From positions 248,001 to 312,000 of the forward strand of contig NZ_LT629736.1 of assembly GCF_900104945.1 (NCBI RefSeq): 64,000 nt of DNA. Reading direction: 5' to 3'. The notes under the pieces were generated by a model. It saw nothing but the letters and a program-made list of their open reading frames with translations. It was not told where the DNA came from and made no database searches. Each line of letters opens with the position of its first letter. Position 1 is the stretch's first letter. Source of the DNA: Halopseudomonas xinjiangensis. GTDB taxonomy: Bacteria > Pseudomonadota > Gammaproteobacteria > Pseudomonadales > Pseudomonadaceae. The position numbers were made by a program, and so were the translations under genes. Positions 4,772-13,376 of this stretch are shown here, piece by piece.

Positions 4772-4824
4772 ACCAAGCCCCCCGTGTACCGCCATGCGCT
4801 TCGCGGGATGCCGGTCACGTCCTG

Positions 4825-4830
4825 TACAAT
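4825..4830 (+). promoter_or_regulatory. Candidate -10 element for rsmI
   Basis: TACAAT lies about 28 bases before the rsmI ATG, giving a short leader. A poor -35 (TTCGCG-like, 19-base spacing) makes this tentative. Confidence 0.4.
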
Positions 4831-4858
4831 CCCTCGACCAGCCAGCCCGAGACTCGCC

Positions 4859-5701
4859 ATGACTGCCGGAACCCTTCATATCGTCGCCACGCCCATCGGC
4901 AACCTCCAGGACATCAGCCCCCGCGCGCTGGACGTGCTGCGCTCGGTCAGTCTGATCGCTGCCGAGGACACCCGGCACAGTGCGCGCTTGCTGCAGCACT
5001 TTGGCATCCAGACCCCGACGACCGCCTGTCACGATCATAACGAGCGGGACAAGAGCGAGCGGCTGGTGCAACGGATGCTCGGCGGTGAAAGCATGGCGCT
5101 GATCTCCGATGCCGGCACGCCGCTGGTCTCCGATCCCGGCTACCACCTGGTGCGCCAGGCACGTGCGGCCGGCGTCCGCGTCAGCCCGGTTCCCGGTGCC
5201 TGCGCCCTGATCGCTGCGCTGAGCGCGGCAGGCCTGCCGTCGGATCGCTTCGCCTTTGAGGGGTTTCTTCCGGCCAAGGCGCATGGTCGTCGCCAGCGGA
5301 TCGAGGCGCTGGCAGGCGAGTCGCGCACCTGGATGTTGTATGAGGCGCCGCATCGGCTGCTCGAATGCCTGGAAGACATGCGCGATTTGCTGGGTGACGA
5401 CCGGCAGGTGGTGCTCGCACGCGAGTTGACCAAGACCTTCGAAACCATCAAGGGTGCGCCGCTGAGCGAGCTGGTCGAGTGGGTTCGCGGCGATTCCGAC
5501 CAGCAGCGGGGCGAATGCGTGCTGTTGGTCGAAGGCGCGCCGCAGCGTGACGAGGATGCACTGGATCCGGAAGTCGAGCGCATCCTTGATGTGCTACTGG
5601 AAGATTTGCCGGTGAAGCAGGCCGCTGCGCTCGCGGCGAAGATCACTGGCGAGAAGAAGAACAAGCTGTACCAACTCGCGCTGGAGCGGGGCGGGCGCTA
5701 G
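4859..5701 (+). CDS. rsmI: 16S rRNA (cytidine-1402 2'-O)-methyltransferase RsmI
   Basis: RsmI methylates the ribose of C1402 in the decoding centre of 16S rRNA; RsmH, encoded at 13933, methylates the base of the same nucleotide. The 280-residue protein has the tetrapyrrole-methylase fold with the diagnostic VATPIGNLQDIS (about 8-19), the AEDTR motif and the SDAGTPLVSDPG SAM-binding loop. The ATG at 4859 is chosen because the family begins just before this TPIGNL segment; an in-frame ATG at 4784 would add a tail without homology. In other pseudomonads rnpB follows directly; here a 7-kb operon intervenes. Confidence 0.95.
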   Translation: MTAGTLHIVATPIGNLQDISPRALDVLRSVSLIAAEDTRHSARLLQHFGIQTPTTACHDHNERDKSERLVQRMLGGESMALISDAGTPLVSDPGYHLVRQARAAGVRVSPVPGACALIAALSAAGLPSDRFAFEGFLPAKAHGRRQRIEALAGESRTWMLYEAPHRLLECLEDMRDLLGDDRQVVLARELTKTFETIKGAPLSELVEWVRGDSDQQRGECVLLVEGAPQRDEDALDPEVERILDVLLEDLPVKQAAALAAKITGEKKNKLYQLALERGGR

Positions 5702-5723: not shown

Positions 5724-8700
5724 TCAGTCAGCGCCGATAACCAGCACCCGCTGCCCTGCGCGCACCGGAGAGCCCGGTTGTGCCTGGACGGCCTTGACCA
5801 CGCCATCGACCGGCGCCGTAAGCGGTATCTCCATTTTCATCGATTCGAGAATCACCAGCACATCGCCAGCCTTGACAGTATCGCCTTCGCTCACCTGCAC
5901 CTGCCAGAGGTTACCGGCGATGTGGCTCTCGACGCTGTGCTCCCCCGCTTGGAGCGGTGCGTCTTCGCCCACCTCGGCAACCGCTTCGTCACTTTGGTAA
6001 TCCGCCTGGCCGTTGGCGATCCAGCGTTCGCGCTCGGCGTTGAACGCGGTCTTCTGCTGGTCGCGAAACGCCTGGATGCTGTCGGCCTCTTCATCGAGGA
6101 ACGCCTGATACTCGTTGAGCTTGAGTTCGGTCTCTTCGACGCGCAGCGGATAGCGGCCCAGCGGAAAGTCGCGGCGAATCTGCAGCAGTTCGTCGGCGCT
6201 GACCGGATAGAAGCGAATCTGATCGAAGAAGCGCAACAGCCACGGCTGGCCGCCGAAGGCTTCCACTTCGCGATAGCGATTCCACATCTGCAGCGTGCGA
6301 CCGACGAACTGATAGCCGCCCGGGCCTTCCATGCCATACACGCACATGTAGGCGCCGCCGATGCCCACCGAGTTCTCGGCCGTCCAGGTGCGCGCCGGGT
6401 TGTACTTGGTGGTGACCAGCCGGTGGCGCGGATCGAGCGGGGTGGCAACCGGCGCACCCAGGTACACATCACCGAGGCCCATGACCAGGTAGCTCGCCTC
6501 GAAGACGGTGCGGTACACCTCCTCCAGGTTGGGTAGATCGTTGATGCGGCGAATGAATTCCAGGTTGCTCGGACACCAGGGCGCGTCCTTGCGCACCGTC
6601 GTCATGTACTTCTGGATCGCCAGCTGGCAGGCCGGATCGTCCCAGGACAGCGGCAGGTGGACGATGCGCGAGGGCACCTTGAGGTCGCGCGCGCTGCATA
6701 CCTGGTTCCATTCCCGCTCGACTGTGGCAAGCAGGCTGTCAAGCTGCAATGTTTCGGACTGGTAGTGAACCTGCAGCGAGCGAATGCCAGGCGTCAGATC
6801 AATCACACCTTCGAGTGCGAGGGCTTCGAGCGCCTGCATCAACGCATGCCCGCGGAAACGTAGCACCAGATCGAGCTCCGGCTGGCCGATTTCGAGCAGC
6901 AGATGCGTATCGCCAGAGAGGCGAGCGACCAGGCGGGTGTCGGCTTCGCCGATATCCAGCACGATGGGCGATGCGATGGGTTCGGCTGGGCTGTCCTGCG
7001 GGCACAGCGGGGCCAGCGATTCGATTTCGTTGCGGCGCGCGACCGCGAGCTCGCGGGCGCTCTCAAGACTCACCGGCACGAAGCGCAGCTTGTCGCCCGC
7101 CTTGAGCTGGCCGAGTTGCCACAGGTCCGCCTCGATGATGGTCACCGGGCAGACGAAGCCGCCCAGGCTCGGGCCATCCGGGCCGAGGATCACCGGCATG
7201 TCGCCGGTAAAGTCCACTGCGCCGATGGCGTAGGGGTTGTCGTGGATGTTGGACGGGTGCAGGCCCGCTTCGCCGCCATCTTCGCGGACCCATTCCGGCC
7301 GCGGTCCGATCAGTCGCACGCCGGTGCGGCTGGAGTTGAAATGCACTTCCCAATCGGTCGACAGGAAGCGCTCCATGTACGCCTGCGTGAAATATTCGGG
7401 CGCTGCGTGCGGGCCGTAGATGACTCGCAGCGTACGCACTTCGGGTAGCTGTGAGCACAGCTCGGCCATCAAGGACGCGCCGGCGTTGGCGTCGGTCAGC
7501 GCCGTCAGATGCAGTACGTCACCGGTGCGCAGCGCGCGGCCGGAGTGGCCGCCGAACTGGCCCAGCGTGAAGGTGCTCTTGCTGCCCAGATACTCCGGTA
7601 CCTGAATGCCGCCGCGGATCGCCAGATAGCTGCGTGCACCAGCGCCGGCAATGGTGCCGATGGCCAGCGTGCTGCCAGCAGAGATGTGGAGGGCGGTGCA
7701 CATGGGTTGCGCGGCGCCGTCCAGCGTCAACGGAATCTCCGCCCCGGTCACAACTACCACTGCGTCGGTATTGAAGCGCAGAGTGGGGCCGGTCATGGTG
7801 ATTTCCAGGCCGGCGGCGTCTTCCGGGTTGCCCAACAGGCGATTACCCAGACGCAGGGCGCGATTGTCCATCGGGCCTGACGGCGGTACGCCGACAGCCC
7901 AGTATCCCAGGCGGCCCGGCACGTCCTGCACGGTGGTCTGGGTACCGCCGGTCAGCACTTCCATGGTCGTGCTGCGGTATTCCAGATCCTCAAGGCAGCG
8001 AGTCCAGGGGTGGCCGCTGGCGAAGGGTTTGTCACGCAGGATCTGCTGCAGGTAGCCCTGGTTGGTTTCAACGCCGTACAGCAGGGTAGCGCCCAGCGCT
8101 GTGTCGAGTGCTTCGATCGCCTCGTCACGGCTCGGCTGCCAGGCGATGACCTTGGCGATCATCGGATCGAAGTAGGGCGGAATCTCGCAACCGGCCTCGA
8201 CCCAGGTGTCGATACGCAGTTGCTCGCCATCAGCTTCGGGAAACTGCACGGCAGTCAGCAGGCCAGGGCACGGCTGGAAGTCCCGGCCCGGATCTTCGGC
8301 ATACAAACGCGCCTGAATCGCATGGCCCTTGGCTTCGAGACCATGGCCGAGCACGTCGAGGGAAGGCAGGTCGCCGGCGGCGAGCTGGATCATCCAGCTG
8401 ACCAGGTCGACACCCCATACCTGCTCGGTGACGCCATGCTCGACTTGCAGGCGGGTGTTCACTTCAAGGAAATAGAAGCGGTCGGCCTCGCTGTCGTAGA
8501 CGAATTCGACGGTGCCGGCGCTGCGGTAGCTGACGGCCTTGCCGAGCTGGATGGCGGCTTCGCACAGAGCTTCGGCCATGCCTTCCGGCAGGTTCGGCGC
8601 CGGGGTTTCTTCCAGCACCTTCTGGTTGCGCCGCTGCACCGAGCAGTCGCGGACGCCCAGGGCAACGACGTCGCCCTGGCCATCGCCAAAGATCTGCACT

Positions 8701-9332
8701 TCAAGATGGCGGGCGCGCTGGATGTATTTCTCGATGAATACGCCCGCGTCGCTGAAGTTGTTCTGGCCCAGGCGACGTACCGCTTCGAAGGCGTCGCTGA
8801 GCTCGGCTTTGCTGCGACATACTCGCATGCCAATGCCGCCACCGCCTGCCGTGCTCTTGAGCATGACTGGGTAGCCAACCCCCTCTGCCGCTTCGAGCGC
8901 GGTCTGAACGTTTTCCAGCAGCTCGGTGCCCTCCAGCATCGGTACGCCGTGCTGTTTGGCCAGTGCCCGTGCGGTGTGCTTGAGACCGAATACGCGGAGT
9001 TGCTCAGGGGTCGGGCCAACAAAAGCGATTCCTGCTGCTTCGCAGGCTTCGGCAAAGGCTGCATTTTCCGAGAGGAAGCCGTAACCGGGGTGGATCGCTT
9101 TGGCACCGGTCTGCCTGGCAACGCCGAGGATCTTCTCTACATCGAGATAGGTGGCCGAGGCGGGGCCCTCACCCAGCGAATGTGCCTCGTCAGCCTGCTG
9201 GATGTGCAGGCTCGCCGCGTCTGCCTCTGAGTACACCGCCACGCCCTGCACATCGAGCTGCTTCAGCGTGCGAAGAATGCGGCAGGCAATGGCGCCACGG
9301 TTGGCGATCAGCAATTTGTCGAACATCGTCAT
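5724..9332 (-). CDS. uca: Biotin-dependent carboxylase: guanidine carboxylase (usually annotated urea carboxylase)
   Basis: This 1202-residue enzyme has, in order, an N-terminal biotin carboxylase domain (about 1-450, ATP-grasp loop GGGGIGMR near 165), an allophanate-hydrolase-like KipA/KipI carboxyltransferase region (about 460-1050) and a C-terminal biotinyl domain with ESMKME, the biotinylated Lys near 1166. It fixes bicarbonate onto urea or guanidine at ATP cost. Family members behind a guanidine-I riboswitch and beside two DUF1989 proteins have been shown to be guanidine carboxylases, so guanidine is the favoured substrate here. The start could be the ATG at 9332 or 9326; GAGGAA lies just upstream. 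Allophanate hydrolase, the usual last step, is not adjacent. Confidence 0.88.
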   Translation of the reverse strand: MTMFDKLLIANRGAIACRILRTLKQLDVQGVAVYSEADAASLHIQQADEAHSLGEGPASATYLDVEKILGVARQTGAKAIHPGYGFLSENAAFAEACEAAGIAFVGPTPEQLRVFGLKHTARALAKQHGVPMLEGTELLENVQTALEAAEGVGYPVMLKSTAGGGGIGMRVCRSKAELSDAFEAVRRLGQNNFSDAGVFIEKYIQRARHLEVQIFGDGQGDVVALGVRDCSVQRRNQKVLEETPAPNLPEGMAEALCEAAIQLGKAVSYRSAGTVEFVYDSEADRFYFLEVNTRLQVEHGVTEQVWGVDLVSWMIQLAAGDLPSLDVLGHGLEAKGHAIQARLYAEDPGRDFQPCPGLLTAVQFPEADGEQLRIDTWVEAGCEIPPYFDPMIAKVIAWQPSRDEAIEALDTALGATLLYGVETNQGYLQQILRDKPFASGHPWTRCLEDLEYRSTTMEVLTGGTQTTVQDVPGRLGYWAVGVPPSGPMDNRALRLGNRLLGNPEDAAGLEITMTGPTLRFNTDAVVVVTGAEIPLTLDGAAQPMCTALHISAGSTLAIGTIAGAGARSYLAIRGGIQVPEYLGSKSTFTLGQFGGHSGRALRTGDVLHLTALTDANAGASLMAELCSQLPEVRTLRVIYGPHAAPEYFTQAYMERFLSTDWEVHFNSSRTGVRLIGPRPEWVREDGGEAGLHPSNIHDNPYAIGAVDFTGDMPVILGPDGPSLGGFVCPVTIIEADLWQLGQLKAGDKLRFVPVSLESARELAVARRNEIESLAPLCPQDSPAEPIASPIVLDIGEADTRLVARLSGDTHLLLEIGQPELDLVLRFRGHALMQALEALALEGVIDLTPGIRSLQVHYQSETLQLDSLLATVEREWNQVCSARDLKVPSRIVHLPLSWDDPACQLAIQKYMTTVRKDAPWCPSNLEFIRRINDLPNLEEVYRTVFEASYLVMGLGDVYLGAPVATPLDPRHRLVTTKYNPARTWTAENSVGIGGAYMCVYGMEGPGGYQFVGRTLQMWNRYREVEAFGGQPWLLRFFDQIRFYPVSADELLQIRRDFPLGRYPLRVEETELKLNEYQAFLDEEADSIQAFRDQQKTAFNAERERWIANGQADYQSDEAVAEVGEDAPLQAGEHSVESHIAGNLWQVQVSEGDTVKAGDVLVILESMKMEIPLTAPVDGVVKAVQAQPGSPVRAGQRVLVIGAD

Positions 9333-9422
9333 GTTCCTCGGCCAGGCCGTCCTGGACGTTTCGTTCCATGCCGCCGGGTCGTCCCGACGGGGTTGATTCG
9401 ATTTACAAACGACGGGAGGCGC

Positions 9423-10058
9423 TCAGTCCCAGACCAGCATTTCTGCCGGAGTGGGGTTGTAGCCGTTGCAGGGGTTGTTCAGCTGCGGGCAGTTGGAAAT
9501 CAGGATGATGATGTCCATGTGCGCGACCAACTCGACGTACTTGCCCGCGCCGGAAATGCCGTCTTCGAAGGTCAGGCCGCCTTCCGGTGTCACCGGCACG
9601 TTCATGAAGAAATTGATGTTGTGGCTGATGTCGGCCTTGGTCAGACGGCCGTCATGCAGCGAGGCGCGCAGGAAGTTGTCGCGGCAGCTGTGCATGTAGC
9701 GCGTGTCGAGCGCGTAGCGCACGGTGTTGCTTTCCTGCGCACAGGCGCCGCCTAGGGTGTCGTGGCGCCCGCAGGTGTCCGCGGTGATGGTCAGCATCGG
9801 ATTGCCGCGGTTGCTGTACAGCACGCTGCCGGTGGTCAGGTAGACCTGGTTCTGGCGGCGCAGGGTGCGCTGTACGTCGTAGCGCTCGCGCGGGTTGGCG
9901 GCGCTGAAAAACAGCGTGTCGACAGCCTGGTTGCCTTCCAGATCCAGCAGGCGGACAGTCTGCCCGGCCTTGATGTCCTTCATCCAGGGTTCACCGGCGG
10001 GCATGACCGCGCGGTACGCGGCGTTCTCTGGCTGTTTGTCGCTGTGAGTCATTGTCAT
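9423..10058 (-). CDS. DUF1989 protein UAAP1, probable carboxyguanidine deiminase subunit
   Basis: The 211-residue protein belongs to the urea-carboxylase-associated family 1 (DUF1989). Segments such as [17 protein letters not shown] and RDNFLRA are shared with its neighbour at 10070, so the two are paralogues. Proteins of this pair form a heteromeric carboxyguanidine deiminase (CgdAB), which removes ammonia from carboxyguanidine to give allophanate. The start is taken at the ATG at 10058, preceded by AAGGGG; a longer reading frame would run into the upstream gene. Which subunit is CgdA and which CgdB I cannot assign. The carboxylase gene follows after 90 bases. Confidence 0.85.
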
Positions 10059-10069
10059 GGTTCGGCCCC

Positions 10070-10798
10070 TTACAGATAAGTGCGGTCGGTGTTGTGCAAG
10101 GCGCGCACGTTTTCCGGGCGCGTGTTGCGGCACAGCACGGTGATGCCGTCGTCGGCGACGCGATGCCAGCTCAGGCCGACCGGCTTGGGTGCGTAGTCGG
10201 GAGCAGGGTCCATCGGATGCTGTAACGCGGTGAGTACGACCAACGTGTCCATGGGGGCGTACAGCTCGATCACGTCGCCTGCCTTCGAGTTGCCTGAGTG
10301 AAATTCGAAAGCACCACTGGCATCGACGGTGACCTTGCTGAACAGGTTGAGAGCCATCAACAGGTCGGACAGGGTCATGTTCCACTTGCCCATTTCGACC
10401 AGCAGGTTGTCCACGCCGTTGCGGTAAAAACCATTGCGCAGTTCCTGATAGCGACCTTCGCCGTACTTGTCCTTCACTTCTTCTGCATTGAGCACCCCGC
10501 CGAAGCTATCGCTCCAGCCGCAGGTATCGGTGACGATCGCGGCCAGCACCTTGCCCATGTCCGAGTAGAGGCAATGGCCGGCCGTGAGCTTGGCGGTGTG
10601 CTGTCCCTTGAGCGAGTCGGGTAGGTTCAGGCGTTCGCTCTTGTCCTGGGCGTTGAACATCAGCAGGCTGACGTTGGCACCGCCTTCGATATCGGTCAGG
10701 CGCAGCAGTTGTCCGCGCTTGAGCACGAAGGAAGTATGGCCACCGCCGGGGACGGTTTCCTCATACAGCGTGGGTCGCAGGGCAGCAGGGATGCTCAT
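10070..10798 (-). CDS. DUF1989 protein UAAP2, probable carboxyguanidine deiminase subunit
   Basis: The 242-residue protein is the larger partner of the DUF1989 pair (urea-carboxylase-associated family 2). It shares the [12 protein letters not shown] core with UAAP1, Cys and Asp being candidate metal or catalytic residues. Its ATG overlaps the stop of the ABC ATPase gene by four bases (ATGA), and UAAP1 begins 11 bases after its stop, so expression is coupled. Function as a carboxyguanidine deiminase subunit is inferred from family plus the riboswitch; older annotation gives only urea amidolyase-associated protein. Confidence 0.85.
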
Positions 10799-11607
10799 GG
10801 GCGGGCTCCTTGATGGGTGTCGTCCGGCAGCTGACCGCCGGTAATGCGTTCGGGCAGGGCGCTGACGGCGTCACGCGCGGCCTTCCGGTCGCTGTTTAGG
10901 GGTATGTCATAAGTAATGCGCGCACCGTAGGCGCCGGGTGCTTGCGGATCGATACGGGTCTTGTCGAACACCAGCAGGCGCGTTCCGAGGGTGAAGCCTT
11001 CGGACAGATCGTGCGTCACCATGAACACGGTCAGCCCGGTTTGTTTCCACAATTCCAGCAGCAAATCGTGCATGTCCTTGCGGATGCCTGGGTCGAGCGC
11101 GCCGAATGGCTCGTCCAGCAGCAGGATGCGTGGCGTCTTGACCAGTGCCTGGGCAATCGCCAGGCGCTGCTGCATGCCGCCCGAAAGGGCGTGCGGGTAT
11201 TTGTCGAGCGAATTGCCCAGGCCAACCTTTTCCAGGATGGCCACCGCCTTCTCGCGCGCTTCGCGCTTGGCGCTGCCGAAGAGTCGGCCAATCAGCGGTG
11301 CCTGCTGCAGCTCCATGCCCAGCATGACGTTGCCCAGCACGGTCAGATGTGGAAAGACCGAGTAGCGCTGGAATACCACGCCGCGATCCGGGCCCGGCTC
11401 CGGCGGCAGCGGCTTGCCATCGATGAGCAGTTGACCTCTGCTGGGCGTTTCCTGGCCGAGCAGCAGGCGCAGGAAGGTCGACTTGCCACACCCCGAAGCA
11501 CCGACCATGGTGATGAATTCGCCGCTGGCGACTTCCAGATCCAGATTTTCCAGCACGACCTGATCGCCGTACTCCTGCCAGACTTGCTTGATGGAAATGG
11601 CGGACAT
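10795..11607 (-). CDS. ABC transporter ATP-binding protein (probable guanidine/urea-type uptake)
   Basis: The 270-residue nucleotide-binding subunit has Walker A GASGCGKST (about 37-45), the Q-loop, signature LSGGMQQRLA (about 142), Walker B RILLLDEPFGALD and a switch His in MVTHDLSEG. It is most like SsuB/TauB-type ATPases of nitrate/sulfonate/taurine importers. It starts one base after the permease stop and overlaps the UAAP2 start. The riboswitch-led operon suggests guanidine, or a related nitrogen compound, as cargo; this is inference. Confidence 0.88.
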   Translation of the reverse strand: MSAISIKQVWQEYGDQVVLENLDLEVASGEFITMVGASGCGKSTFLRLLLGQETPSRGQLLIDGKPLPPEPGPDRGVVFQRYSVFPHLTVLGNVMLGMELQQAPLIGRLFGSAKREAREKAVAILEKVGLGNSLDKYPHALSGGMQQRLAIAQALVKTPRILLLDEPFGALDPGIRKDMHDLLLELWKQTGLTVFMVTHDLSEGFTLGTRLLVFDKTRIDPQAPGAYGARITYDIPLNSDRKAARDAVSALPERITGGQLPDDTHQGARP

Positions 11608-11608
11608 G

Positions 11609-12427
11609 TCAGTGGGCTCCCTTGGGTTCGAACCAGGGGAACAGCACGCGTGTGGTTCCCTTCAGCAGGCGGTCCATGATGAAAGCGAGCAACGTGATCC
11701 AGGCGACATACGGCAAGATCACATCCATTGCCAGGTAACGGCGCACCAGGAAGATGCGATATCCCAGGCCGTCGGTCGACGCGATCGCCTCGGCGGCAAT
11801 CAGAAACAGCCAGGCCGGGCCGAGAGCGAGTGCCAGCCCCTGCAGCAAACGCGGAAAGAGCTGCGGCAACACGACGCGGATCAGTACCTGCCATGTATTG
11901 GCGCCCAGGGTCTGCGCCTTGACCAACAGCTCTGCCGGGATCTCCTTGACGCGCTGCTCCATGTCGCGAATCAACACCGGCGTGATACCGATGACGATCA
12001 ACATCACCTTGGATAGCTCGCCCAGCCCGAGCACGATGAACAGGATCGGCAGGATCGCTAGCGGTGGAATCATCGATAGCACCGTTGTCAGCGGAGACAG
12101 AGGCGTGCGTAACAATGGAATGAGCATGGCCATCCCGAGGACCAGGCTGACCAGAGCGGAGATGCCCAGGCCGGTCCCCAGACGTTTGAGGCTGGAAGCG
12201 GTGTCCTCCCACCATAGATAAGCGCCGGTGCGTCGATCCTCGGTAAAGGCCATGCGGTCCACGGCCTCAGCCATCTGGGTGAAGCTGGGCAGCAACTTGT
12301 CATCAGGGTTTTCTGCCAGACGCGCCTGGGAACTGAACAGATAGAACATCAGCAACAGAGCGAAGGGGAGAAGTATCAGCCCGAGGCGCAGCGGGCGGCT
12401 GGGTTCCCGGTTCATGAGGCGGGGCAT
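11609..12427 (-). CDS. ABC transporter permease (SsuC/TauC type)
   Basis: First gene after the riboswitch. The 272-residue inner-membrane protein has about six membrane segments, beginning near residue 14, and the cytoplasmic EAA-like loop in IPAELLVKAQTLGANTW typical of BPD-type permeases. The ATG at 12427 is chosen because TTGGAGAC lies 6-8 bases upstream; a longer frame to 12523 would run through the riboswitch. A substrate-binding protein normally precedes this gene in related operons but is absent here, so the importer must use a binding protein encoded elsewhere or none. Confidence 0.85.
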   Translation of the reverse strand: MPRLMNREPSRPLRLGLILLPFALLLMFYLFSSQARLAENPDDKLLPSFTQMAEAVDRMAFTEDRRTGAYLWWEDTASSLKRLGTGLGISALVSLVLGMAMLIPLLRTPLSPLTTVLSMIPPLAILPILFIVLGLGELSKVMLIVIGITPVLIRDMEQRVKEIPAELLVKAQTLGANTWQVLIRVVLPQLFPRLLQGLALALGPAWLFLIAAEAIASTDGLGYRIFLVRRYLAMDVILPYVAWITLLAFIMDRLLKGTTRVLFPWFEPKGAH

Positions 12428-12474
12428 GGCAGTCTCCAATGGGTACACGTGACGAGATCTCAGCTGTCTGAGGC

Positions 12475-12566
12475 TCTCCCGGGCTTTTATCCCGCCGTGT
12501 AACCCCCTGCCGGAGGTCGACAACTCTCGGACCAGTCACCTGCGTTGCAGGCCGGAACCCTAGTCG
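12475..12566 (-). promoter_or_regulatory. Guanidine-I (ykkC) riboswitch aptamer
   Basis: Read on the minus strand, the leader contains, in order, CTAGGGTTCCGGC (12563-12551), ACTGGTCCGAGAG (12536-12524) and ACGGCGGGATAAAAGCCCGG with GAGA after it (12498-12475). These are the three invariant blocks of the ykkC class that binds guanidinium. The aptamer ends about 48 bases before the permease ATG. No poly-T terminator follows, so control may act on ribosome access; the short region after the aptamer holds CTCAG...CTGAG and the TTGGAGAC ribosome site. I regard the aptamer as near certain and the mechanism as open. Confidence 0.95.
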
Positions 12567-12651
12567 TCCATTGATGTTCATTTTAGCGACCCGCTTGGGC
12601 CGAATAACACCTGGGTCAGACAGACCCGATCTCGCATATTGTCATTGTCAA

Positions 12652-12667
12652 TGCACTTGCTGTGCCA
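12652..12667 (-). promoter_or_regulatory. Sigma-54 (RpoN) promoter for the guanidine operon
   Basis: On the minus strand TGGCACAGCAAGTGCA matches the -24/-12 consensus (TGGCACG-N4-TTGCW) at all but two fixed positions. GG and GC are at the required spacing. Transcription would start near 12641, giving a leader of about 215 bases that contains the riboswitch. An NtrC-like site lies upstream at 12742. Confidence 0.75.
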
Positions 12668-12741
12668 ATTGCCTCGAGTGCCGCAAAACGGGGCGCCGGG
12701 AGCCGTGGCTATTCGGGAAGTCGGTTCTCCGCCGGCCTAAT

Positions 12742-12758
12742 TGCACCGATGTGGTGCG
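12742..12758. promoter_or_regulatory. NtrC-type enhancer palindrome
   Basis: TGCACC-GATGT-GGTGCG fits the NtrC consensus TGCACC-N5-GGTGCA with one mismatch. Its centre is about 110 bases upstream of the predicted sigma-54 start near 12641, an ordinary enhancer distance. It also lies upstream of rnpB on the other strand, but rnpB has its own sigma-70 promoter. Confidence 0.7.
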
Positions 12759-12791
12759 CTACGTGCGCTGAATCTGTGCGCTTGAGAAATC

Positions 12792-12820
12792 TTGCCGTTA
12801 GCCGCGAAGCGGGATAACCT
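12792..12820 (+). promoter_or_regulatory. rnpB promoter
   Basis: TTGCCG (12792-12797) and TAACCT (12815-12820) are separated by 17 bases, placing the start about seven bases later, close to the first base of the RNase P RNA at 12828. Confidence 0.55.
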
Positions 12821-12827
12821 TGCCGCA

Positions 12828-13179
<352 letters not shown>

Positions 13180-13376
13180 TATTTCTTCCTTTCTGTCCTT
13201 CAGATGCCCCGCTTTAGTCCAAAAAAATATTACTCGTGAGACTTTACTTTAAGTTGTCACGCCATCCCCTTGTACGTGGTCTCCTTTGTCCCGCCATATT
13301 CATGTCGTTTCTCCCCCGCTGAGCCCTTTTTGGACCTAACCCCCCGTCAATAAAGGATTTTTCGTCAGTTGCTCAC
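13180..13376. other. Non-coding spacer between rnpB and the mra promoter
   Basis: About 200 bases without a supportable gene. The only structure noticed is a 9-bp inverted repeat, GTCCAAAAA (13217-13225) and TTTTTGGAC (13327-13335), spaced about 100 bases apart. No clear terminator for rnpB was seen. Confidence 0.5.

Follow-up and report, generated by a model that had tools for sequence, protein, structure and literature searches.

A probable guanidine-assimilation operon of Halopseudomonas xinjiangensis that joins a predicted NtrC/sigma-54 promoter to guanidine-I and guanidine-II riboswitches

Introduction

Guanidine riboswitches are usually treated as guanidine-only switches. In Vreelandella boliviensis, guanidine binding by guanidine-I has been measured, with a dissociation constant (KD) of 44 uM (PMC12508155), and the available part of a review describes a dual guanidine-I/guanidine-II arrangement in three enterobacteria. 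The test made in V. boliviensis set guanidine against ammonium as sole nitrogen source, a design in which, on our reading, nitrogen and guanidine inputs are inseparable. Here we analyse a 64,000-nucleotide stretch of the H. xinjiangensis genome (NZ_LT629736.1, positions 248,001 to 312,000; hereafter the window), in which an operon of transporter, DUF1989 and carboxylase genes carries both switch classes behind what we take to be a promoter that answers to nitrogen limitation.

The nitrogen side of such operons has been approached separately. In Burkholderia cenocepacia H111, a urea-carboxylase cluster with an ABC (ATP-binding cassette) transporter, I35_7283-7286, is lowered in an ntrC mutant under nitrogen limitation, the carboxylase by a log2 change of -6.0, and 95% of the top 150 NtrC genes are also sigma-54-regulated (PMC5491218, in its accessible part). 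An in silico sigma-54 regulon likewise lists, in the text available, promoters for 102 COG3665 genes from alpha-, beta- and gammaproteobacteria (PMC12316311). Guanidine-I copies have been noted in Herbaspirillum and Alcanivorax, with no promoter class given in the accessible passages (PMC7011215, PMC9788540). The promoter half and the riboswitch half are each partly in print. An earlier remark knew of no description of this exact pairing; a partial literature search found no paper linking sigma-54, RpoN or NtrC to a guanidine/ykkC riboswitch, and joining the two seems to be new.

Results

Promoter and aptamers of the operon

The regulatory elements lie as follows, in window positions:

12742..12758, no strand assigned: NtrC-type enhancer palindrome CGCACC-N5-GGTGCA (CGCACCACATCGGTGCA), 11/12 consensus positions
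12652..12667, minus strand: predicted sigma-54 -24/-12 promoter TGGCACAGCAAGTGCA, GG-N10-GC, 10/12 consensus positions
12641, minus strand: predicted transcription start, about 12 nt past the -12 GC, from promoter geometry
12474..12574, minus strand: predicted guanidine-I aptamer (RF00442), cmscan 90.5 bits, gathering score 63, E 5.6e-15
9342..9390, minus strand: predicted guanidine-II aptamer (mini-ykkC; RF01068), 3' of the second DUF1989 gene and 5' of the carboxylase gene, 41.8 bits, gathering score 32

NtrC sites were scored on the 12 specified positions of TGCACC-N5-GGTGCA and sigma-54 sites on a 12-position consensus. The palindrome is the only NtrC-like site of at least 11 in the 64-kb window, and a scan of both strands for a sigma-54 site of at least 10 with an NtrC site of at least 10 centred at -150 to -50 returns a single pair, the one described here. 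The palindrome centre lies 83 nt upstream of the -24 T, compared with 84 nt at the glnK-amtB promoter of the same genome (sigma-54 10/12, NtrC 11/12), and the start-to-start offsets of the two sites are 91 and 92 nt, respectively. The genome, a single contig of 3.54 Mb, carries rpoN (529 bits against a cut-off of 277) and ntrC (783.8 bits). With its conserved GG-N10-GC and an rpoN gene in the genome, the -24/-12 element has the features of a sigma-54 promoter, and the palindrome at enhancer distance, together with ntrC, those of a putative NtrC-dependent one; a consensus scan of 9000-13300 found no sigma-70 site. Both predicted aptamers exceed the curated covariance-model cut-offs for their classes.

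These results bear out most of the first-pass annotation of this DNA, which had described the palindrome, the -24/-12 element and a guanidine-I aptamer at 12563-12475 as two stacked controls ahead of transporter, paired DUF1989 and carboxylase genes. Its reading of the operon as an AND gate is partly supported. Both controls are real, correctly placed, conserved and far above chance, the aptamer match spans 12574-12474, and family searches support the genes; what it had overlooked was the guanidine-II aptamer inside the operon and, upstream, rnpB.

We propose that the operon serves guanidine assimilation and is controlled serially, with the NtrC/sigma-54 promoter acting first and guanidine-I and guanidine-II after it, and we put the probability of this reading at about 0.8. 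Under nitrogen shortage, phosphorylated NtrC on the palindrome at 12742-12758 would activate sigma-54 polymerase at 12667-12652, and the mRNA would begin near 12641, as the conserved motifs suggest. Guanidine bound to guanidine-I would then allow expression of the transporter and deiminase genes; in its absence, aptamer GGGTTACACG may pair with CGTGTACCC just 5' of the ribosome-binding site, probably blocking translation. Guanidine-II, 5' of the carboxylase gene, would gate the committing enzyme again. Imported guanidine would be carboxylated, deiminated to allophanate and finally hydrolysed to ammonia. The promoter would supply the nitrogen-need input and the RNAs the substrate input, and we infer from the sequence both the guanidine gating of the predicted switches and an AND logic of the two inputs.

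Recurrence of the pairing

Guanidine-I matches were collected from genus, family, order, class and phylum samples, and 196 aptamers in 174 genomes were scored; 31 of the 39 genus sites listed were included, and at family level mainly the best-scoring ones. A strict sigma-54 site had to contain GG and GC and at least 9 of 12 positions, no more than 150 nt upstream of the aptamer; a relaxed site was TGGCAY-N6-TG within 200 nt. A search of relatives for conserved -24/-12 and ykkC pairs, which the first-pass annotation had proposed as a check, came out strongly in its favour: strict sites precede 160 of the 196 aptamers (genus 31/31, family 38/38, order 44/68, class 40/45, phylum 7/14), where dinucleotide shuffles give about 10, and they occur in 21 of 777 far-upstream windows. 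Relaxed sites precede 119 of the 196 (2.2 in shuffles), and one or the other rule is satisfied at 179. When nothing is assumed about the -12 element, the 85 TTGGCAY sites among the 196 show G at 96%, C at 80% and A/T at 98% there.

The 36 aptamers lacking a strict site include 19 with a relaxed one, mostly TTGGCAC/T followed by TG, not GC, at -12, a form that many of the order-level misses carry. Neither rule is satisfied at 17; at one of these (L102) a strict site lies just past 150 nt.

The promoter is rare in controls. At thiamine pyrophosphate (TPP) riboswitches of the same genus, strict sites were found in 2 and relaxed sites in none of 30 examined among those listed. Across 31 guanidine-II loci, strict sites occur before 0/10 SMR exporters, 1/18 carboxylases and 2/3 desaturase-like first genes; the absence before SMR exporters, which serve detoxification, indicates that the promoter goes with gene use and not with the ligand. 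A tblastn search with one SMR query over the roughly 1.5 kb that follow each of the 196 guanidine-I sites (27 of the stretches were shorter) found no SMR gene, and 12 of the 196 sites matched none of eight query proteins. It could be argued that the sigma-54 and NtrC matches of the window arose by chance, or that they belong to rnpB, the divergent gene whose 5' end is about 70 bp from the palindrome; sigma-54 sites of at least 9 do occur in about 5% of shuffled 150-nt windows. The pair nevertheless recurs at guanidine-I aptamers across the class, at varied loci, with low TPP and SMR controls, and we regard this explanation as very improbable.

Some genomes carry guanidine-I in pairs. In four (L148, L153, L155, L156) two aptamers stand divergently, about 0.3 to 0.45 kb apart, and all eight have strict sigma-54 sites; elsewhere (L043, L048, L062, L125 (G122), G039, G049, G094) two aptamers on one strand are separated by 1.4 to 1.6 kb, which would suit a second switch placed behind the first gene of the operon.

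A further set, assembled by aptamer pattern scan with one genome per species and hereafter called the named set, comprised at least 120 stretches and 80 listed loci, from which 81 aptamers were scored and two near a contig end left out. Groups were assigned from record titles, and the set overlaps the 196-aptamer sample, at least four contigs being identical in length. Strict sites were found at 16/17 gamma-, 15/18 beta- and 12/16 alphaproteobacterial aptamers, compared with 0/19 in Bacillota, 1/7 in cyanobacteria, 0/3 in actinobacteria and 0/1 in Campylobacterota. Predicted starts in the alphaproteobacteria fall at -3 to +2 of aptamer nucleotide 1 (12/12), while gamma- and betaproteobacterial leaders measure 22 to 66 nt, with one gamma exception of 5. 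On a Pantoea vagans C9-1 plasmid, a 12/12 sigma-54 site, guanidine-I and a guanidine-II before uca stand together. Among the elements examined, promoter plus guanidine-I is the usual arrangement in Gamma- and Betaproteobacteria and a frequent one in Alphaproteobacteria, and within the proteobacteria sampled the pairing amounts to a general design.

The second gate

Between the guanidine-I aptamer and the permease gene lie three further features:

12459..12472, minus strand: small hairpin CTCAG-ACAG-CTGAG 3' of the aptamer, kept in an alignment of 10 genus sequences including this one
12441..12449, minus strand: candidate anti-aptamer segment CGTGTACCC, directly 5' of the ribosome-binding site, complementary with one bulge to aptamer GGGTTACACG
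12434..12437, minus strand: Shine-Dalgarno (SD) sequence GGAG of the permease gene, from sequence

Throughout the 10 aligned genus sequences the segment, in the forms CGTGTACCC, CGTGTAACC or CCTGTAACC, is complementary to the aptamer strand GGTTACACG, perfectly or with one mismatch or bulge. An equally good duplex arises in a fraction of 0.075 of shuffles of the window leader and in at most 0.05 for 6 of the 10 genus sequences; over the wider sample, 56 of 181 sites have a duplex matched by at most 5% of shuffles, compared with 8 of 179 when a region 300 nt farther downstream is taken. The window leader folded alone carries no information (z 0.10).

How the aptamer acts is the less certain part of the proposal. 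One alternative is that the second gate is transcriptional, guanidine-I controlling premature termination, intrinsic or Rho-dependent, such that no full mRNA is made without guanidine. Guanidine-I 'presumably' destabilises an intrinsic terminator in V. boliviensis, according to the accessible text (PMC12508155), and the part of a review available calls class I transcriptional. A hairpin and T-run scan nonetheless recognised no intrinsic terminator-like structure just after the window aptamer, which by this measure is not of the intrinsic-terminator type, and such structures follow 9 of 181 guanidine-I sites against 4.7 in shuffles (0/31 in the genus). An intrinsic terminator as the guanidine-I output was set aside on these counts. 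Among the scorable sites of the named set, terminators were found at 7/12 in Bacillota but 1/32 in proteobacteria, the Bacillota figure implying that the sensitivity of the rule is moderate. In B. cenocepacia, moreover, whose cluster may likewise carry a riboswitch, the distal carboxylase transcript is strongly NtrC-dependent in nitrogen limitation (PMC5491218, accessible part). We consider a termination gate unlikely, though it is the strongest of the competing explanations. The first-pass suggestion that guanidine makes the transcript 'productive' is, if an intrinsic terminator was meant, doubtful for the same reason. With no intrinsic terminator recognised after the aptamer, a translational block is probable, and a translational guanidine-I gate is our best guess from modelled pairing.

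Weighing nitrogen control

The enhancer-distance palindromes bear most directly on the identity of the activator. An NtrC-like site of at least 9, centred -150 to -50 from the -24 T, accompanies 113 of 159 strict sigma-54 sites against 11.6 in shuffles, and one of at least 10 accompanies 53 of 159 against 1.7; in the named set such a palindrome is present at 13/16 gamma- and 11/15 betaproteobacterial strict-promoter sites.

A number of observations weigh against serial control by NtrC and the two switches. NtrC is proposed as activator from its motif, nine long NtrC-family matches occur in the genome, and an NtrC-like palindrome, by the consensus used, accompanies 1 of 12 sigma-54-positive alphaproteobacterial sites of the named set. 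These would suit a sigma-54 promoter that answers to a different enhancer-binding protein, such as NtrX or a regulator not linked to the operon, with an input other than nitrogen limitation. We consider that improbable, given the excess of enhancer-distance palindromes over expectation, the matching geometry of the glnK promoter in the same genome, the NtrC dependence of the homologous B. cenocepacia cluster in the accessible part of its report (PMC5491218), and a family search of the operon proteins, which found no regulator gene among them. Further points against serial control are that the family-level sample favours high-scoring aptamers, that genes for the substrate-binding protein and allophanate hydrolase (genome 181119-182777, 820.6 bits) lie outside the operon, elsewhere in the genome, and that two Pseudomonas nitrogen-regulon papers name no guanidine or allophanate genes in their available text (PMC8443478, PMC7801951).

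At the RNA level, predicted SD accessibility in the window is 0.48 both free and with the aptamer constrained, and among the genus sequences 6 of 10 show a rise (one of them of just 0.03) and 3 a fall. On these folds we do not claim that the SD of the window leader is unmasked, and the constancy in the window and mixed behaviour in relatives make the translational gate a guess and not a result. A terminator-like hairpin, with a 5-pair stem followed by AGGTGTTATT, also lies at 12627-12613 (minus strand), in the leader 5' of the aptamer; the region has 4 terminator-like sites against 3.0 in shuffles, and the hairpin is probably a chance occurrence.

The distribution of RpoN adds a last point against. 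It was tested in 51 chosen cases from 50 genomes, 26 with a sigma-54 site and 25 (24 genomes) without, the latter being the 17 sites that satisfy neither rule and 8 named-set misses. All 26 cases with a site pass the RpoN cut-off, and so do 19 of the 25 without, Nitrosomonas and Nitrosospira included, which means that a missing RpoN accounts for few of the misses. The six failures (five genomes, Rhodobacteraceae among them) are all no-site cases; one genome (G1228) falls just below the cut-off, at 275.1 against 277.35, and another (G1244) is 2.6 Mb, its completeness not stated. Lack of RpoN thus tends to go with lack of a sigma-54 site, yet most misses have RpoN.

All three betaproteobacterial misses of the named set (L276, L278, L311), two Nitrosomonas and one Nitrosospira, are ammonia oxidisers, in which guanidine may be used for energy metabolism instead of meeting a need for nitrogen. 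One further genome (G318, contig 1, 1827992-1829358) has its rpoN match in two adjacent pieces and a guanidine-I upstream site (L114) that looks degraded; a relative (G513, L179) has a single intact rpoN match and a similarly degraded site.

Genes of the operon and its flanks

The protein-coding genes and the upstream RNA gene are these:

11609..12427, minus strand: ABC permease (BPD_transp_1, TauC/SsuC/NtrB-like), by family search
10795..11607, minus strand: ABC ATP-binding protein, by family search
10070..10798, minus strand: UAAP1 (DUF1989), TIGR03425 315 bits, cut-off 206
9423..10058, minus strand: UAAP2 (DUF1989), TIGR03424 331 bits, cut-off 285
5724..9332, minus strand: predicted guanidine carboxylase (annotated urea carboxylase), 1202 residues, TIGR02712 1886 bits, cut-off 1304
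12828..13183, plus strand: rnpB (RF00010), upstream of and divergent from the operon, by Rfam match

Read along the minus strand, the order is NtrC-type palindrome, sigma-54 element, guanidine-I, permease, ATPase, UAAP1, UAAP2, guanidine-II and carboxylase. We take DUF1989 to be COG3665, and UAAP1 and UAAP2 to be carboxyguanidine deiminase subunits, following a published assignment.

In the carboxylase, Asp707 aligns with an Asn at position 737 of chain 3va7, the urea carboxylase of the yeast Kluyveromyces; by offset from 5i8i this position is residue 1330, presumably the residue that decides between urea and guanidine. Asp in place of Asn is the mark of guanidine carboxylases in the carboxyltransferase active site, in the accessible text of PMC12186494, and the operon enzyme, which has it, is predicted to be a guanidine rather than a urea carboxylase.

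The start of rnpB is 70 bp from the palindrome. Downstream, an open reading frame (ORF) at 4784-5701, convergent with the operon, was taken for rsmI by eye, with no family search. The genes rnpB and rsmI are neighbours in Pseudomonas, and the operon seems to lie between these two here.

Other guanidine loci in the genome

A second guanidine-I aptamer with a sigma-54 site lies near glnK-amtB, from genome position 3260959 onward (L006:8960-17669), with genes for an SsuA-like binding protein, a fatty-acid-desaturase-family membrane protein, an SDR protein, a creatininase and an MBL-fold hydrolase, and with ORFs that, by eye, resemble EamA and ABC ATPase genes. The locus may encode a pathway that yields guanidine from an alkylguanidine or a compound like creatinine; a partial literature search found nothing that brings together guanidine, riboswitch and creatininase. 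Relatives of the desaturase-family protein stand close behind switches of both classes, at 3 of 31 guanidine-II (L389, L374, L382) and 8 of 196 guanidine-I sites.

A third guanidine-I aptamer, in the region of genome position 1818461 (L007:5844-10643), precedes an EamA transporter gene. Divergent from it are genes for a 2OG-Fe(II) oxygenase, for a protein that matches no family, and for a substrate-binding protein (TIGR03427, 521 bits; 'urea carboxylase' ABC type). Each side has its own sigma-54 site (9400 plus and 9101 minus). By the likeness of its neighbours to V. boliviensis, the oxygenase and the protein without family match form a candidate mgdH/mgdL locus.

Finally, a guanidine-II match just below the cut-off (31.8 against 32 bits; genome 3042849-3042893, minus strand; L005) lies ahead of a gene resembling an SMR exporter, with a reading frame that seems to be interrupted in the assembly; the match has no strict sigma-54 site.

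Discussion

The elements, their spacing, their conservation and their specificity against controls are observed, and serial control is the likely interpretation of them. A nitrogen-starvation promoter, shared by most Gamma- and Betaproteobacteria in the samples, would mean that guanidine-I there serves nitrogen assimilation. We predict that in cells fed ammonium guanidine alone leaves these operons off, and that without guanidine a nitrogen-starved cell makes no protein from them; with two inputs, tests of guanidine against ammonium as sole nitrogen source confound them. The arrangement would also give engineering a compact two-input device taken from nature, and assimilation loci could be told from export loci by a simple rule on the sequence.

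A bolder proposal, to which we would give slightly worse than even odds, is that Proteobacteria sort guanidine-switch genes at the promoter, assimilation genes being placed under NtrC/sigma-54 and exporters not. Starvation would then make a poised mRNA that is licensed for translation at two switch classes, and many alphaproteobacterial RNAs would start at aptamer nucleotide 1.

The operon most alike in genes is that of V. boliviensis, in which guanidine-I comes first, guanidine-II precedes the carboxylase gene, and genes for an ABC importer, deiminase and carboxylase are present; it differs in holding mgdH and mgdL, candidates for which lie elsewhere in the H. xinjiangensis genome, with a substrate-binding protein gene (PMC12508155, accessible part). 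In the available main text of that paper NtrC is absent and 'sigma' appears only as a chemical supplier (PMC12508155). The B. cenocepacia cluster was interpreted as serving urea use, in an accessible main text without guanidine or riboswitch (PMC5491218). A protein search found no Burkholderia among 60 listed of 505 plasmid-set records, in which Caballeronia and Pantoea were present. The in silico sigma-54 regulon, as far as its available text goes, leaves guanidine unmentioned and has riboswitch only in a reference title (PMC12316311).

By analogy of function, the nearest model is the nas operon of Klebsiella, in which, in the accessible part of the account, Ntr control for nitrogen need is likewise followed by a substrate-sensing step in the leader RNA (PMC5424462). 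There the leader is read by a nitrate-sensing protein antiterminator, NasR (PMC5424462), whereas in the operon described here the RNA itself would sense guanidine, with a second switch inside the operon.

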